The position numbers and the translations under genes were made by a program. Source: Frankiaceae bacterium (GTDB lineage: Bacteria; Actinomycetota; Actinomycetes; JAFAQI01). From it: a stretch of DNA of 41,755 bases. The notes beneath the pieces are model-generated. The model was not told the origin of the DNA and ran no database searches. It saw only the letters and a program-made list of their open reading frames with translations. Of this stretch, positions 4,222 to 14,159 are shown piece after piece. The stretch covers positions 1-41,755 of the forward strand of contig JAICMG010000008.1 of the NCBI GenBank assembly GCA_025929365.1, in the 5' to 3' direction. The stretch's first letter is position 1, and every line of letters starts with the position of its first letter.

Positions 4222-4832
4222 AGCGCCTTCAGCCAGTTCTCGAGCAGCGTCAGCCCGGCGTCGCCGGACTTCTCAGGGTGAAACTGCGTCGCCGACAGCG
4301 CGCCGCTCTCGACAGCGGCGACGAAGGGCGCCCCGTGCACCGTCAACGTCTCCCCCTCGGTCGCGCCCGGCCGGACCCCGTAGGAGTGGACGAAGTAGAA
4401 CCGCTGCCCGCCCACACCGGCGAACAGGACGGAGCCAGCCGGCGGCTCGACCGTGTTCCAGCCCATGTGCGGCAGGATCGGCGCGTCGAGGCGAACCACC
4501 TCACCCGGCAGCACTCCGATGCCGTCGGTTCGCTCCCCGTGCTCCTCCCCTACGTCGTAGAGCACCTGCATGCCCACGCAGATGCCGAGCACCGGGCGAC
4601 CGAGCTCGATCCGTTGGCGGACGAGAGCGTCAGCGCGCACGTCGCGGACGCCTGCCATGCACGCGGCAAACGCGCCGACGCCGGGCAGGACGACGCCATC
4701 CGCGTCGTACGCCGTGTCCAGGTCAGCAGTGACGCGCACATCCGCGCCGACCCGGGCGAGAGCGCGCTCGGCCGAACGAAGGTTCCCCGATCCGTGGTCG
4801 ATAACGACCACGGACGGTTTCGCGTCGGCCAT
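4218..4832 (-). CDS. hisH: Imidazole glycerol phosphate synthase glutaminase subunit
   Basis: [25 protein letters not shown]...[11 protein letters not shown]...FYFVHSYGV...[10 protein letters not shown]. Confidence 0.96.
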
Positions 4833-9159: not shown

Positions 9160-10224
9160 TCAAAACAGCGTGCTCAGCACGTCGATCGCTCGCGCGCCGC
9201 CGAACACCGCGCCGGCGTCGCGTGGCGGCTCGGCCCGGCGTACGGCGTCCACGAGCTCCGGCCCGCTGCTCGTGCAGGTGGCGAGCCCACTGCGTTCGAG
9301 GACCACCGCGTTGATGCGACCGTGACCGGCGATCGGCCGGTACACCACGGTCGGCTTTCCCATCGCGAGCGCCTCCCAGCACGTCGTCCCGCCCGCGTTG
9401 TCGACCACGACGTCCGCGGCAGCGAGCAGGCCGACGACGTCACCGGTCCACGGGATCGGACGAACCTTCTCGATTCGGCTGAGCCGGCTCGCCAGGCGGA
9501 CCGAGCGGCCGGTGAGGACGAGCACGACGTCGGCCGCCTCGGCGAGCAGGCGCGCAGCCGCCTCGACCTGCCCGACGCCCCAGCTGCCGCCGTTGACGAG
9601 GACGACCCGGGCGTCCTCGCGCAGCTGCCAGCGTCGCCGCGCGTCGGACCGATCGGCGGGCTGGGTGTACTTCGCGGCGATGAGAGGCGCGACCGGCTTC
9701 ACGACCTCCGCGCCCATGTCCTCCAGGGCGGAGGCCGTATCGGGCATCGGCGCCAGGTGGAGGTCGACGCCCTCCCACACCCAGTAGGGGTGCGCGCCCG
9801 GATCGGTGACGTACGTCGCCACCGGAACGGTGAGCCGACCTTCGCTGCGCAGCCGGGCCAGCACCTGCGCGGCCAGGTTGTAGACCGCAACGACCGCGTC
9901 CGGGCGATAGCGCGCAACCTCGTCGAGGAGCGGCTTCTCGCTGCTGCGGCCGCCGTTGCGGGTGATGAACACGAACAGGCTCGGATGGTCCAGCCAGGTC
10001 CGCATCGCCCAGTCGTACAGCCATGGGAAGACCGCGATCATGGCGTGGTAGAAGATCCGCAGCGCGGCGCCCTGACCGTGCCGGGGCATCGCGAGCAGGT
10101 CCACCACGCGGGCTTCGTGACCTTCCGCCTCGGCCTGCGCGGCGAGCGCGGCGGCAGCCGCGTCATGGCCGGCGCCCATCGACGCCGACACGATCAGCAG
10201 CCGCTTCGAAGCCATTGTGGTCAC
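9160..10224 (-). CDS. MGDG-synthase/UgtP-like glycosyltransferase (GT28 type)
   Basis: MTTMASKRLLIVSASMGAGHDAAAAALAAQAEAEGHEARVVDLL...; C-terminal VDNAGGTTCWEALAMGKPTVVYRPIAGHGRINA resembles the GT28 donor-binding motif. Confidence 0.85.
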   Translation of the reverse strand: MTTMASKRLLIVSASMGAGHDAAAAALAAQAEAEGHEARVVDLLAMPRHGQGAALRIFYHAMIAVFPWLYDWAMRTWLDHPSLFVFITRNGGRSSEKPLLDEVARYRPDAVVAVYNLAAQVLARLRSEGRLTVPVATYVTDPGAHPYWVWEGVDLHLAPMPDTASALEDMGAEVVKPVAPLIAAKYTQPADRSDARRRWQLREDARVVLVNGGSWGVGQVEAAARLLAEAADVVLVLTGRSVRLASRLSRIEKVRPIPWTGDVVGLLAAADVVVDNAGGTTCWEALAMGKPTVVYRPIAGHGRINAVVLERSGLATCTSSGPELVDAVRRAEPPRDAGAVFGGARAIDVLSTLF

Positions 10225-10280: not shown

Positions 10281-10590
10281 GTCAGATCAAAAACAAACCC
10301 GCTAAGACGAGGGGATGGCGCCCGCTCATGGTCGGCTTCCGCTCATGGCCGCTTCCGCTGCCCCGTTGCGTTTCGCTGCTGATTCGTATGTCACATAGGT
10401 GTTGCGAATCACGACCCGCATGTCACACCGGTGTCGTGATTCGCGACACCGGTGTGACATAGGGGCGAGGTGGCACAACACGCATGTGACATGCGAGCAG
10501 CGCAGCGGCACGCAGCGCGGCTCGCTTGCGCGGCAGCGAAAAGCCCAGGAAGCGGAAGCGACCCCTGGTCTTAGCGGGGCTTGACCTGAC
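10281..10590. repeat. MITE-like / large imperfect palindromic intergenic element
   Basis: Left end GTCAGATCAA(aaacaaa)CCCGCTAAGACGAGGGG; reverse complement of right end GTCAGGTCAAGCCCCGCTAAGACCAGGGG. Both arms continue through CTTCCGCT-type sequence and end in TATGTCACATAGGTG / CATGTCACATGCGTG; core holds a perfect 17-bp inverted repeat. Confidence 0.65.
10420..10460. repeat. Perfect 17-bp inverted repeat, 7-nt loop
   Basis: ATGTCACACCGGTGTCG-tgattcg-CGACACCGGTGTGACAT. Confidence 0.9.
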
Positions 10591-10610: not shown

Positions 10611-13600
10611 CTACGAGACGCAGTTGGGACCCAACAGCTGCTTGAGGTCCGCCATGAGCGCCGGCGTGGGAGCAACTCGGTAGCCGTCGCCGATGCGCAT
10701 CACGGTCGACCGCGCGGCGGTCGTCAACGACAGGTGCACGTCGGTTGCACCGGGATGTGCGGCGAGCACCTCTTTGAGCCGGTCCACAACGAGCGGCGTG
10801 CAGCGGTTCGCCGGCAGCGAGATCACGACCGGCCCGCGCGGCCCCTGGCTGATGTCCGGGACCGTCACCTCCATCGCGATGAACCGCGGCACCTCCTCGC
10901 GTTTGTCCAGCCGGCCCTTCACAAGCACGACCGCGTCCTCCGAAAGATGGACGCCGTACTCCTCGTACGTGCGCGGGAAGAACAGCACCTCGACCGCGCC
11001 CTCGAGATCTTCGAGCATCGCCGTCGCCCACGAGTCGCCACGCTTCGTCATCTTGCGCGTGACGGTCGACAGGATGCCGCCGACAGTGAGGATCGCACCT
11101 TCCGGCTTGTCGTCGCCGGCCATCGCGGAGATCGGGCAGTCGACCGCCGCGGCCAGCACGTGCTCGACACCGAGCAGCGGGTGATCGGAGACATAGAGCC
11201 CGAGCATCTCCCGCTCGTAGGCCAGCAGGACCGACTTCTCCCACTCGCTGACCGGGATCGTGAGGTTCAGCCCCAGCGTCGGCTCCGCCTCGCCGCCGTC
11301 GCCGTCACCGCTGAACAGGTCGAACTGCCCGACCGCTTCGTTGCGCTTGGTGTCCATGCACGCGTCGATCGCCTCGGCGTGAATCCGCAGCAGGCCCTGG
11401 CGGGTGTGACCCAGCGAGTCGAAGGCGCCCGCCTTGATCAGCGACTCGATGACCTTCTTGTTGCAGACGACCGGCTCGACCTTCGTCAGGAAGTCACCGA
11501 AGTCGGCGTAGGCGCCCTTGCTGCGCCGGGTCGCGCAGACCGACGCGACGACGTTGCTGCCGACGTTGCGGATGCCGGCCATGCCGTAGCGGATGTCCGT
11601 GCCCACCGGCGCGAAGTCCGCGTCGGAGGAGTTCACATCGGGCGGGAGCACCTTGATGCCCATTCGCCGGCACTCGTGGAGGTAGAGGGCGCTCTTGTCC
11701 TTGTCGTCGCGCACGGACGTCAGCAGCGCCGCCATGTACTCGGCCGGGTAGTTCGCCTTGAGGTACGCCGTCCAGTAGCTGACGACGGCGTAACCGGCTC
11801 CATGGCTCTTGTTGAACCCGTAGTCGCTGAACGGGACGAGGATGTCCCAGATCGTCTTGACCGCGTCCTCGCTGTAGCCGCGCTGCAGCATGCCGTCGCG
11901 GAAGCCGGCGTACTCCTTGTCGAGGATCTCCTTCTTCTTCTTGCCCATCGCGCGCCGCAGCAGGTCGGCCTGTCCGAGGGAGTACCCGGCAAGGCGCTGC
12001 GCGATCGCCATGACCTGCTCCTGGTAGATCACCAGGCCGTAGGTCTCCGACAGGATGTCCTCGAGCGGCTCGGCGAGCTCACGATGCAGCGGGACGACCG
12101 GCTTGCGCCCGTTCTTGCGATCCGCGTAGTCGTTGTGGGCGTTGGCGCCCATCGGGCCGGGTCGATAGAGCGCGATCAGCGCGGTGATGTCGTTGAACCC
12201 GGTGGGGCGCAGCGACCGCAGCAGCGATCGCATCGGCCCGCCGTCGAGCTGGAACACGCCCAACGTGTCCCCACGTCCCAGCAGCGCGTAGGCCTCGGGG
12301 TCGTCGAAGTCGAGCTCCTCGAGCACGACCGTCTCGCCGCGGTTGCTCTCGATGTGACGCAGCGTGTCGTCGAGGACGGTGAGGTTGCGCAAGCCCAGGA
12401 AGTCCATCTTCAGCAGACCGAGCGCCTCGCACGCGTTCATGTCGAACTGCGTGATGATCGCGCCGTCCTGCTCGCGACGCTGGATCGGGATCACGTCGAG
12501 GAGCCGCTCCCGCGACAGGATGACTCCTGCGGCGTGCACGCCCCACTGGCGGCGCAGCCCCTCGAGGCCGCGCGCGGTGTCGACCACCTTTTTCACGTCG
12601 GGCTCGGCGTCGTAGAGCGCGCGGAACTCCTTCGCCTCGCCGTAGCGCTCGTGGGTCGGGTCGAAGATCCCGGCCAGCGGGATGTCCTTGCCCATCAATG
12701 CACCGGGCATCGCCTTGGTGATCTTGTCGCCGATGCCGTACGGGTAGCCGAGCACGCGGGCTGCGTCCTTGATCGCCGCCTTCGCCTTGATCGTCGAGTA
12801 CGTGATGATCTGGCTGACCCGGTCCTCGCCGTACTTCTCGGTGGCGTAGCGGATCATGTCGCCGCGGCGACGCTCGTCGAAGTCCAGGTCGATGTCAGGC
12901 ATCGAGATGCGCTCGGGGTTGAGGAAGCGCTCGAAGAGCAGCCCGTGCGGGATCGGGTCCAGCTCGGTGATCCGCAGTGCCCATGCGACGAGCGAGCCCG
13001 CGGCTGAACCGCGGCCCGGCCCGACCCGGATCCCGTTCTCGCGCGCGTGCCGGCACAAGTCGGCGACCACGAGGAAGTAGCCGGGGAAGCCCATCTGGAT
13101 CATCACGCCGAGCTCGTAGTCCGCTCGCTCGCGATAGTCCGCCGGTATGCCGCCGGGGAACCGGAACTGCAGGCCGCGGTGCACCTCCGCCCGCAGCCAC
13201 GACTCCTCGGTCTCCCCCGGCGGCACCTCGAAGCGGGGCAGCAGGTTGGCGCCCTCGTCGAAGGTGACCTCGCAGCGCTGTGCGATGAGCAGCGTGTTGT
13301 CACAGGCGGCGGGCATGTCGCGCCACACGGTCCGCATCTCCTGCGGCGTCTTCAGATAGAAGTCACGCGCGTCGAACTTGAGGCGGTTGGGGTCGGCCAT
13401 CGTCTTGCCGGACTGCACGCACAACAGGACCTCGTGCGCCTCGGCATCCTTGGCATAGGTGTAGTGCAGGTCGTTCGTCGCGATCGTCGGGATCCCGAGA
13501 TCCTCGGACAGCCGGAGCAGATCGGCGTGGACCCGGCGCTCGATGTCCAGACCGTGGTCCATCAGCTCGACGTAGAAGGACTCGCGGCCGAAGACGTCCT

Positions 13601-14159
13601 GCAGCTCGCCCGCGACCGCCCGAGCGCCGGCGTAGTCCCCGATGCGCAGCTTCGTCTGGATCTCCCCGGACGGGCAGCCGGTCGTCGCGATCAAGCCCGC
13701 GGCGTACTCGCTCAGCAGCTCGCGGTCGGCCCGGGCCTTGTAGAAGTACCCCTCGAGGCTGGAGCGGCTGGCCAGCCGGAAGAGGTTGTGCATGCCCACG
13801 GTCGTCTCGGCGAGCAACGTCATGTGCGTGTACGCCCCACCGCCGGAGACGTCGTCCTCGCCGCCCTCCGCCCAGCGCACCCGGCTGCGGTCGTAGCGCG
13901 ACGTGCCGGGCGTGACATAGGCCTCCATGCCGATGATCGGCTTGACCCCGGCGGCCTGTCCCTTCTTCCAGAACTCGTAGGCCCCGAACACGTTGCCGTG
14001 GTCGGTCATCGCGAGGGCCGGCATCCCCATGCGGGCCGCTTCGGCGAACAGCTCGCTCACGCGCGCGGCGCCGTCGAGCATCGAGTACTCACTGTGCACG
14101 TGGAGGTGGACGAACTGCTCGTCAGGCGCCGGGCTGCCTGGCGACTCAGTCACGGACAT
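10611..14159 (-). CDS. dnaE: DNA polymerase III subunit alpha
   Basis: 1182 aa; N-terminal PHP domain FVHLHVHSEYSMLDGAARV...MTDHGNVFGAYEFWKKG; catalytic PDIDLDFDERRRGDMI; C-terminal OB-like LTVGGILSTVTRKMTKRGDSWATAMLEDLEG. Confidence 0.97.
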   Translation of the reverse strand: MSVTESPGSPAPDEQFVHLHVHSEYSMLDGAARVSELFAEAARMGMPALAMTDHGNVFGAYEFWKKGQAAGVKPIIGMEAYVTPGTSRYDRSRVRWAEGGEDDVSGGGAYTHMTLLAETTVGMHNLFRLASRSSLEGYFYKARADRELLSEYAAGLIATTGCPSGEIQTKLRIGDYAGARAVAGELQDVFGRESFYVELMDHGLDIERRVHADLLRLSEDLGIPTIATNDLHYTYAKDAEAHEVLLCVQSGKTMADPNRLKFDARDFYLKTPQEMRTVWRDMPAACDNTLLIAQRCEVTFDEGANLLPRFEVPPGETEESWLRAEVHRGLQFRFPGGIPADYRERADYELGVMIQMGFPGYFLVVADLCRHARENGIRVGPGRGSAAGSLVAWALRITELDPIPHGLLFERFLNPERISMPDIDLDFDERRRGDMIRYATEKYGEDRVSQIITYSTIKAKAAIKDAARVLGYPYGIGDKITKAMPGALMGKDIPLAGIFDPTHERYGEAKEFRALYDAEPDVKKVVDTARGLEGLRRQWGVHAAGVILSRERLLDVIPIQRREQDGAIITQFDMNACEALGLLKMDFLGLRNLTVLDDTLRHIESNRGETVVLEELDFDDPEAYALLGRGDTLGVFQLDGGPMRSLLRSLRPTGFNDITALIALYRPGPMGANAHNDYADRKNGRKPVVPLHRELAEPLEDILSETYGLVIYQEQVMAIAQRLAGYSLGQADLLRRAMGKKKKEILDKEYAGFRDGMLQRGYSEDAVKTIWDILVPFSDYGFNKSHGAGYAVVSYWTAYLKANYPAEYMAALLTSVRDDKDKSALYLHECRRMGIKVLPPDVNSSDADFAPVGTDIRYGMAGIRNVGSNVVASVCATRRSKGAYADFGDFLTKVEPVVCNKKVIESLIKAGAFDSLGHTRQGLLRIHAEAIDACMDTKRNEAVGQFDLFSGDGDGGEAEPTLGLNLTIPVSEWEKSVLLAYEREMLGLYVSDHPLLGVEHVLAAAVDCPISAMAGDDKPEGAILTVGGILSTVTRKMTKRGDSWATAMLEDLEGAVEVLFFPRTYEEYGVHLSEDAVVLVKGRLDKREEVPRFIAMEVTVPDISQGPRGPVVISLPANRCTPLVVDRLKEVLAAHPGATDVHLSLTTAARSTVMRIGDGYRVAPTPALMADLKQLLGPNCVS

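Follow-up and report, generated by a model that had tools for sequence, protein, structure and literature searches.

A palindrome between dnaE and a glycosyltransferase gene

The window, that is, the whole 41,755-nt stretch of DNA analysed here, lies on contig C164 of the Frankiaceae bacterium genome (G000; 3.27 Mb, 246 contigs). In it, dnaE and a GT28/MGDG-synthase-like gene are located on the same strand with a palindrome between them, and the end of dnaE lies 20 bp beyond the right end of the palindrome. The features of the locus are the following:

10281–10590, no strand: composite palindrome, whole (family A arms and central family B array), from direct reading, arm alignment and folding
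10281–10383, plus strand: family A left arm (GTCAGATCAAAAACAAACCCGCTAAGACGAGGGG..CTTCCGCTGCCCCGTTGCG), with exact or near copies at C82:62936 and C190:12062 and homologous arms in C57, C230, C118, C100 and C190
10497–10590, minus strand: family A right arm, inverted, from arm alignment and genome copies
10387–10493, no strand: family B array with four TGTSACA cores at 10389, 10421, 10453 and 10485, from the exact 32-bp spacing and genome copies in the 32-bp register
10285–10314, minus strand: terminator-like 3' half, the stem CCCCTCGTCTTAGCGGG and then TTTGTTTTTG, along dnaE transcription, from a consensus scan and direct reading
10611–14159, minus strand: dnaE (DNA polymerase III alpha), upstream neighbour, from Pfam
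9160–10224, minus strand: MGDG-synthase/GT28-type glycosyltransferase, downstream neighbour, from Pfam

Direct reading placed the left end of the palindrome at 10281, where GTCAGATCAAAAACAAACCCGCTAAGACGAGGGG starts, and the right end at 10590, to which CCCCTGGTCTTAGCGGGGCTTGACCTGAC runs. The arms were aligned in inverted pairs at 10298–10314/10562–10578 (17 nt, 94% match), 10347–10362/10548–10563 (16 nt, 88%) and 10368–10379/10533–10544 (12 nt, 92%), and the core at 10384–10439/10441–10496 (56 nt, 75%). The single-strand folding of either strand gave −187 kcal/mol versus means of −123 and −121 for shuffled sequences (z = −13 and −15), and none of the 100 shuffles was equally stable. The palindrome at 10281–10590 is real, far beyond chance. 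The initial annotation had described it as a near-symmetrical, non-coding element of ~310 bp, 20 bp past the dnaE stop, with imperfect inverted ends and matching inner arms. Reading and alignment confirmed the symmetry, gene calls and Pfam the position, and the folding it had recommended placed both strands 13–15 SD below the shuffles. Its non-coding nature was also supported, and direct reading of the window copy revealed no target-site duplication, in agreement with the annotation. An Rfam search of the window gave no match.

The 310-bp sequence was then used as a query against its own genome. No second full-length copy was found there; the search returned many copies of element positions 104–216, and the ends were copied separately. 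The inner arms contain a 32-bp unit in two pairs that face each other, and this unit is dispersed in the genome; the outer arms come from a separate repeat family. The composite window element consists of two repeat families, one nested in the other.

The outer and inner repeat families

The outer arms (family A; AAACCCGCNANNACCAGGGG..., then CTTTCCGCTGCCC.G.TGCG) recur at about nine loci of the genome and enclose different cores. These loci are on C164 (the window), C82, C190, C57, C230, C118 and C100, with a weaker arm at C212 and at C82:35.6k. Family B forms the core in the window; a third palindrome, C (ACGTAGGTNGCC...), takes this place in the C82, C57 and C230 copies, and C190 has yet another sequence there. 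Family B arrays are found in or beside family A arms at C164, C212 and C82:35.6k. On the dnaE strand, the arms carry a G+C stem and then a T-run (TTTGTTTTTG), as expected of an intrinsic terminator, and the terminator consensus scan of the stem found one where 0.3 was expected; judged by its sequence, family A appears to be a terminator-like stem. No target-site duplication was seen by eye at the flanks of the family A copies, and no nuclease partner of the kind described below was seen for this family.

The third palindromic family (ACCTACGTTGGGCTC...) was often observed as the core of family A (C82:62930–63154, C57:3392–3521, C230:17348–17479, C131, C72, C133, C30 and others). In the relative G010, four tandem ~70-bp units resembling a family A arm (GTCAGGTCAAACCCCGCAACGACCAGGG) occupy C44 ~1440–1700, which looks like an rplJ-leader spacer, and the family A element on C190 of G000 lies in a spacer that appears to correspond to this pre-rplJ spacer. 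A further hairpin, GTGATCTTGACG...CGTCAAGATCAC, was noted in intergenic junctions of G004 (C18, about 11350–11450) and G010.

The inner family (family B) consists of arrays of ATGTSACAT sites placed exactly 32 bp apart, with two to six sites each. In its own genome, 29 loci carry two or more sites, and a lone site is present in three further contig stretches, of which two lie at contig ends. The register is unbroken in 75/75 units, and positions 3, 5 and 6 of the TGTSACA core are invariant in all 75. The 25-bp spacers are imperfectly palindromic, and the end sequences of the arrays are close to GATCGCA...TGCGATC or, by direct reading, to GATCGCATGTSACATA. Family B has neither a GTAG/CGTC tag at the palindrome end nor a T-run. 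The pairing between the spacer halves amounted to 6.39 of 11 positions, lower than the 6.91 of permuted halves. As the spacer halves do not covary, the conservation of a hairpin in family B is unsupported; recognition as double-stranded DNA seems to fit better, 32 bp being approximately three turns.

The family B arrays lie mostly immediately beyond gene stops. At the 20 loci where both neighbours could be called, these were convergent in 9 cases, tandem in 10 and divergent in 1. Arrays were also observed at the starts of contigs C49, C161 and C198 and at the ends of C104 and C163, the latter two carrying reverse-complementary array sequence near their ends. Because the arrays, judging from contig-end positions, seem to break the assembly, the family B count is probably an underestimate. 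Searches with the exact unit gave only three chance-like single matches in named organisms other than its own genome, and six single matches in viral contigs.

A probable recent insertion at the dnaE–GT28 junction

The dnaE–GT28 spacer is short and free of the element in G004, a genome of the same genus, and in G011, of the same family. The window element is probably a recent insertion at this junction. The initial annotation had proposed to look for further copies and for empty sites, and both were found: parts of the element recur elsewhere in the genome, and these two relatives have a compact orthologous junction, so the element is not a single-copy structure fixed at dnaE loci.

Six junctions carrying family B were compared between G000 and G004, of which about 1 Mb was covered, and their lengths were 383/40, 333/34, 131/28, 181/108, 123/105 and 294/250 bp, respectively. 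Family B was absent from all six orthologous junctions of G004.

A nuclease gene flanked by the same sites

A degenerate search for paired ATGTSACAT sites was performed over 395 genomes of the class Actinomycetes. In family f1, that of the genome studied, it yielded 50 matches in G000, 11 in G010, 3 in G004 and 1 each in G011 and G006. The sites are 30, 31 or 32 bp apart (30–31 bp in G004, G006, G010 and G011), and the spacers are quite different. Outside f1, only single matches were obtained, in six genomes; the reversed control gave 3.

Of the three G004 arrays, two lie on either side of a single 327-aa gene (G004:C47), a nuclease gene as judged from the predicted structure given below. Its homologues at G011:C14 and G010:C75 are likewise flanked on both sides by ATGTSACAT arrays; with Rhodococcus ruber, described below, there are in all four other actinobacteria in which the same core with 30–31 bp spacing is found on both sides of a ~320-aa gene. 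Other f1 homologues have different matching repeat pairs, for example arrays of ATGGCCCAT, GTGGCACAC, ATGGCACAT or CCAGCAACG, or single palindromes of 34–50 bp. In the tree, the array-type and the single-palindrome-type proteins form two clades with a support of 100/100 each.

Five homologues are present in the genome carrying the window, and among those read (C152 left out) none is flanked by ATGTSACAT; the C26 nuclease has the near variant ATGGCACAT at its flanks. It should be noted that this draft is 92% complete and that several contig ends are occupied by family B arrays; our guess is that a small contig with the cognate nuclease of family B may be missing. The C143 nuclease of the same genome is flanked by a near-perfect palindrome of ~42 bp with a CTCTAG centre (4286–4329), which occurs at about 20 loci of this genome. 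The pairing within this ~42-bp family was not above that of permuted sequences, and no compensatory changes were seen. In the same search, the palindromes flanking the C160 and C217 nucleases were found only at those genes.

The citA–serC junction measures 1338 bp in G010, where it holds a frameshifted nuclease gene with arrays on both sides, versus 38–175 bp in G001, G003, G004 and G006. Here, gene and repeats are inserted together where relatives have a compact junction. The C75 junction of G000 is occupied by family B, and its counterpart in G004 by a CCAGCAACG array, the repeat of the G004:C22 nuclease. Arrays of CCAGCAACG..CGTTGCTGG with a period of about 30 bp were observed in G004 both at citA–serC and at this ortholog of the C75 junction. 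At G010:C75 3976–4960 and G005:C95:8216–8827, the nuclease gene is interrupted by a frameshift or a stop, suggesting gene decay with the repeats remaining. The gene family was not found on phages, and on plasmids in one R. ruber record only.

That record, NZ_CP145323.1 of R. ruber MSA14, is filed as plasmid pmega_4; its serS, pks13, fadD32 and arabinosyltransferase genes suggest that it is a piece of a chromosome. It encodes WP_029540190.1, annotated as 'hypothetical protein', which is flanked by GGCCGAATGTCACAT...ATGTGACATTCGGCC palindromes of the form GAATGTCACAT-N21-ATGTGACATTC. The 74-kb record holds six palindromes, five of them with two exact cores at 30-bp spacing; two lie at the gene and four away from it, at or near gene ends. 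The neighbours of the gene are accD and a gene for a hypothetical protein, and no AbiEii was identified beside it. The same core and the same gene family are here seen together in a named organism from a different family of this class.

Matching flanks of the nuclease genes

For each gene, the 300-bp sequences on its two sides were compared by the score of their best local match, with a threshold of 17 that was picked after the control distribution was seen. This score was reached by 30 of the 45 homologues (15/21 in f1 and 15/24 in other families of the class), and the other 15 showed no flank match at the threshold. Among the control genes, which came from G000 and f1 relatives only whereas the homologues also came from other families, 1 of 191 reached it, itself a neighbour of a nuclease gene; the next control scored 16.5. 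When the flanks of different homologues were cross-paired, 19 of the 1980 pairings reached the threshold, and several of the top ones look like a shared neighbour gene or a near relative. The p-values for the excess among homologues (about 1e-42 in the Fisher test and about 1e-21 in a threshold-free rank test) do not count independent events, since the homologues are related to each other.

The predicted nuclease protein

No Pfam or NCBIfam family matched the protein above the cut-off. PADLOC AbiEi models matched residues ~16–190, and each of the 17 members was matched by one model or more. The AlphaFold2 model (pLDDT 90, pTM 0.81) was compared with known structures by Foldseek: the first half matched AbiEi (6y8q) and Rv2827c (1zel), and the second half the catalytic domain of I-Bth0305I (3r3p), the halves being assigned to these matches by inference from lengths and the PADLOC range. 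The 3r3p match had a TM-score of 0.78 on the target, an rmsd of 2.8, a probability of 0.99 and a weak E-value of 0.12, with a good superposition. Residues E210, D212, N229, D243, E254 and H261 are invariant, which is consistent with a putative active nuclease. According to the model, the partner is predicted to combine an AbiEi-like DNA-binding half with a nuclease half of the homing-endonuclease type (I-Bth0305I/Vsr-like).

AbiEi and Rv2827c are reported to bind 23-bp inverted repeats in pairs, with gaps of 3 and 13 bp, and to autoregulate via tandem inverted repeats in their own promoters (PMC7319586). By analogy, such paired binding would match a tandem recognition of double-stranded sites. 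No gene for the nucleotidyltransferase-like AbiEii toxin lies beside G004:C47, where the neighbours encode a PEP-utilising enzyme and an MFS transporter. We found no prior report of DUF559/AbiEi/Vsr-type genes with palindromic repeats in the open-access literature, most subscription papers lying outside this search, and within that literature the gene family is undescribed.

Interpretation of the repeats and their apparent partner

We read the window element as a nested insertion and the family B arrays as non-autonomous, REP-like satellites of the AbiEi-like/nuclease fusion gene family, with a probability of roughly 0.6. The same nine-base core in family B and in the repeats flanking nuclease genes of related actinobacteria suggests that the gene spreads the repeats. 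The observed association, dispersal and insertion could have arisen as follows. A terminator-like palindrome of family A would have entered the dnaE–GT28 junction, with a family B array coming to lie in its centre. The AbiEi-like half would bind the repeats as double-stranded DNA and the nuclease half would cut near repeat sites or at intergenic 3' ends, after which break repair would mobilise the repeat arrays, and sometimes the gene together with its arrays, by copying them into the cut. The 3' ends past stop codons may be occupied because insertion is tolerated there.

The main rival is that the repeats are operators through which the AbiEi-like half regulates its own gene, the dispersed copies being a regulon or a passive accumulation and nuclease-driven mobility playing no part. 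The autoregulation of AbiEi and Rv2827c through tandem inverted repeats in promoters (PMC7319586) speaks for this, and double-stranded protein sites would fit both the rigid 30–32 bp spacing and the absence of compensatory changes from the family B spacers. However, the sites also occur downstream of the gene and mostly beyond stops rather than in promoters, each homologue has its own repeat with copy numbers from 2 to about 30, and gene and repeats are inserted together in the conserved citA–serC junction. A repressor also needs no nuclease half. We consider this explanation unlikely.

The initial annotation favoured a mobile element of the MITE or REP/BIME type. What stood of this is a non-coding, palindromic, dispersed and insertion-type element like REP/BIME structures; a single MITE bounded by terminal inverted repeats and dependent on an unseen transposase is improbable. 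The near-perfect inverted ends, the lack of coding capacity and the empty junctions in relatives would suit such a family, but the 310 bp are nowhere repeated whole, the cores differ among family A copies, and neither a target-site duplication nor an autonomous element with the same ends was found. The transposase with matching ends that the annotation would have looked for was not seen, and no Y1 transposase (PF01797) or RAYT gene is present in the genome, the profile having matched in 5 control genomes; the apparent partner is the nuclease gene instead. Ordinary bidirectional terminators or mRNA-stabilising hairpins, with nuclease genes merely lying between two of them, would account for the position past stop codons and for the T-run after the family A stem. 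This is very improbable, as matching flank pairs were found in only 1/191 other genes and flanks match their own partner and rarely those of another gene; moreover, neither family B nor the 42-bp family shows compensatory changes, family B has no T-run, and its arrays are missing at the six orthologous junctions of the same-genus G004.

The nuclease-partner reading most resembles the REP/REPIN systems with RAYT (TnpA-REP), the so-called 'REPtrons'. Both have short palindromic intergenic repeats, often at 3' ends and in tens of copies; in both, the partner gene lies between copies of its own repeat, which is also dispersed, partner and repeat diversify together, and some genomes lack the partner. 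In contrast to REPtrons, the partner here is predicted to be AbiEi-like and of the homing-endonuclease type rather than an HuH/Y1 transposase, and the repeats have no GTAG/CGTC tag, a rigid 30–32 bp register and no compensatory hairpin changes. Membership in REP/RAYT was rejected on enzyme and tag, the organisation alone being REPtron-like; family B appears to be a REP analogue whose partner is a nuclease and not an HuH transposase. The phyla covered in the GTAG/CGTC survey do not include Actinobacteria (PMC3733652). The TIRtrons with their TIRYTs likewise consist of one gene between longer inverted repeats that bear no relation to REPs, but their enzymes are IS200/IS605-type tyrosine transposases (PMC3733652), whereas the predicted nuclease has another fold. 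The predicted catalytic domain superposes on that of the EDxHD/Vsr-like homing endonuclease I-Bth0305I (3r3p) and would share its fold; unlike that type, it is fused to an AbiEi-like half, lies outside any intron or intein and is flanked by repeats that are also found alone. Likewise, the N-terminal ~190 residues match the AbiEi models and both AbiEi and Rv2827c structures, but, unlike in these proteins, a nuclease half is attached, and, unlike in the AbiE type IV toxin–antitoxin systems, no AbiEii gene was seen beside G004:C47.

More broadly, and with slightly less than even confidence, we propose a distinct class of bacterial mobile DNA, in which the fusion protein would recognise its own palindromes as double-stranded sites in a 30–32 bp register and would spread both the gene with its repeats and the repeats alone by break repair. 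Such elements might be common in Actinomycetes and a source of many of their intergenic palindromes. To our knowledge, REP-type repeats are explained today only via HuH (RAYT) transposases, and repeat families that lack such a partner, the CGTC repeats among them, still pose a puzzle. If partners of the nuclease type, with matching repeats, are present in many actinobacterial families, this would open a second, testable route to bacterial intergenic palindromes, and a candidate function could be assigned to a class of unannotated proteins now listed as 'hypothetical'.
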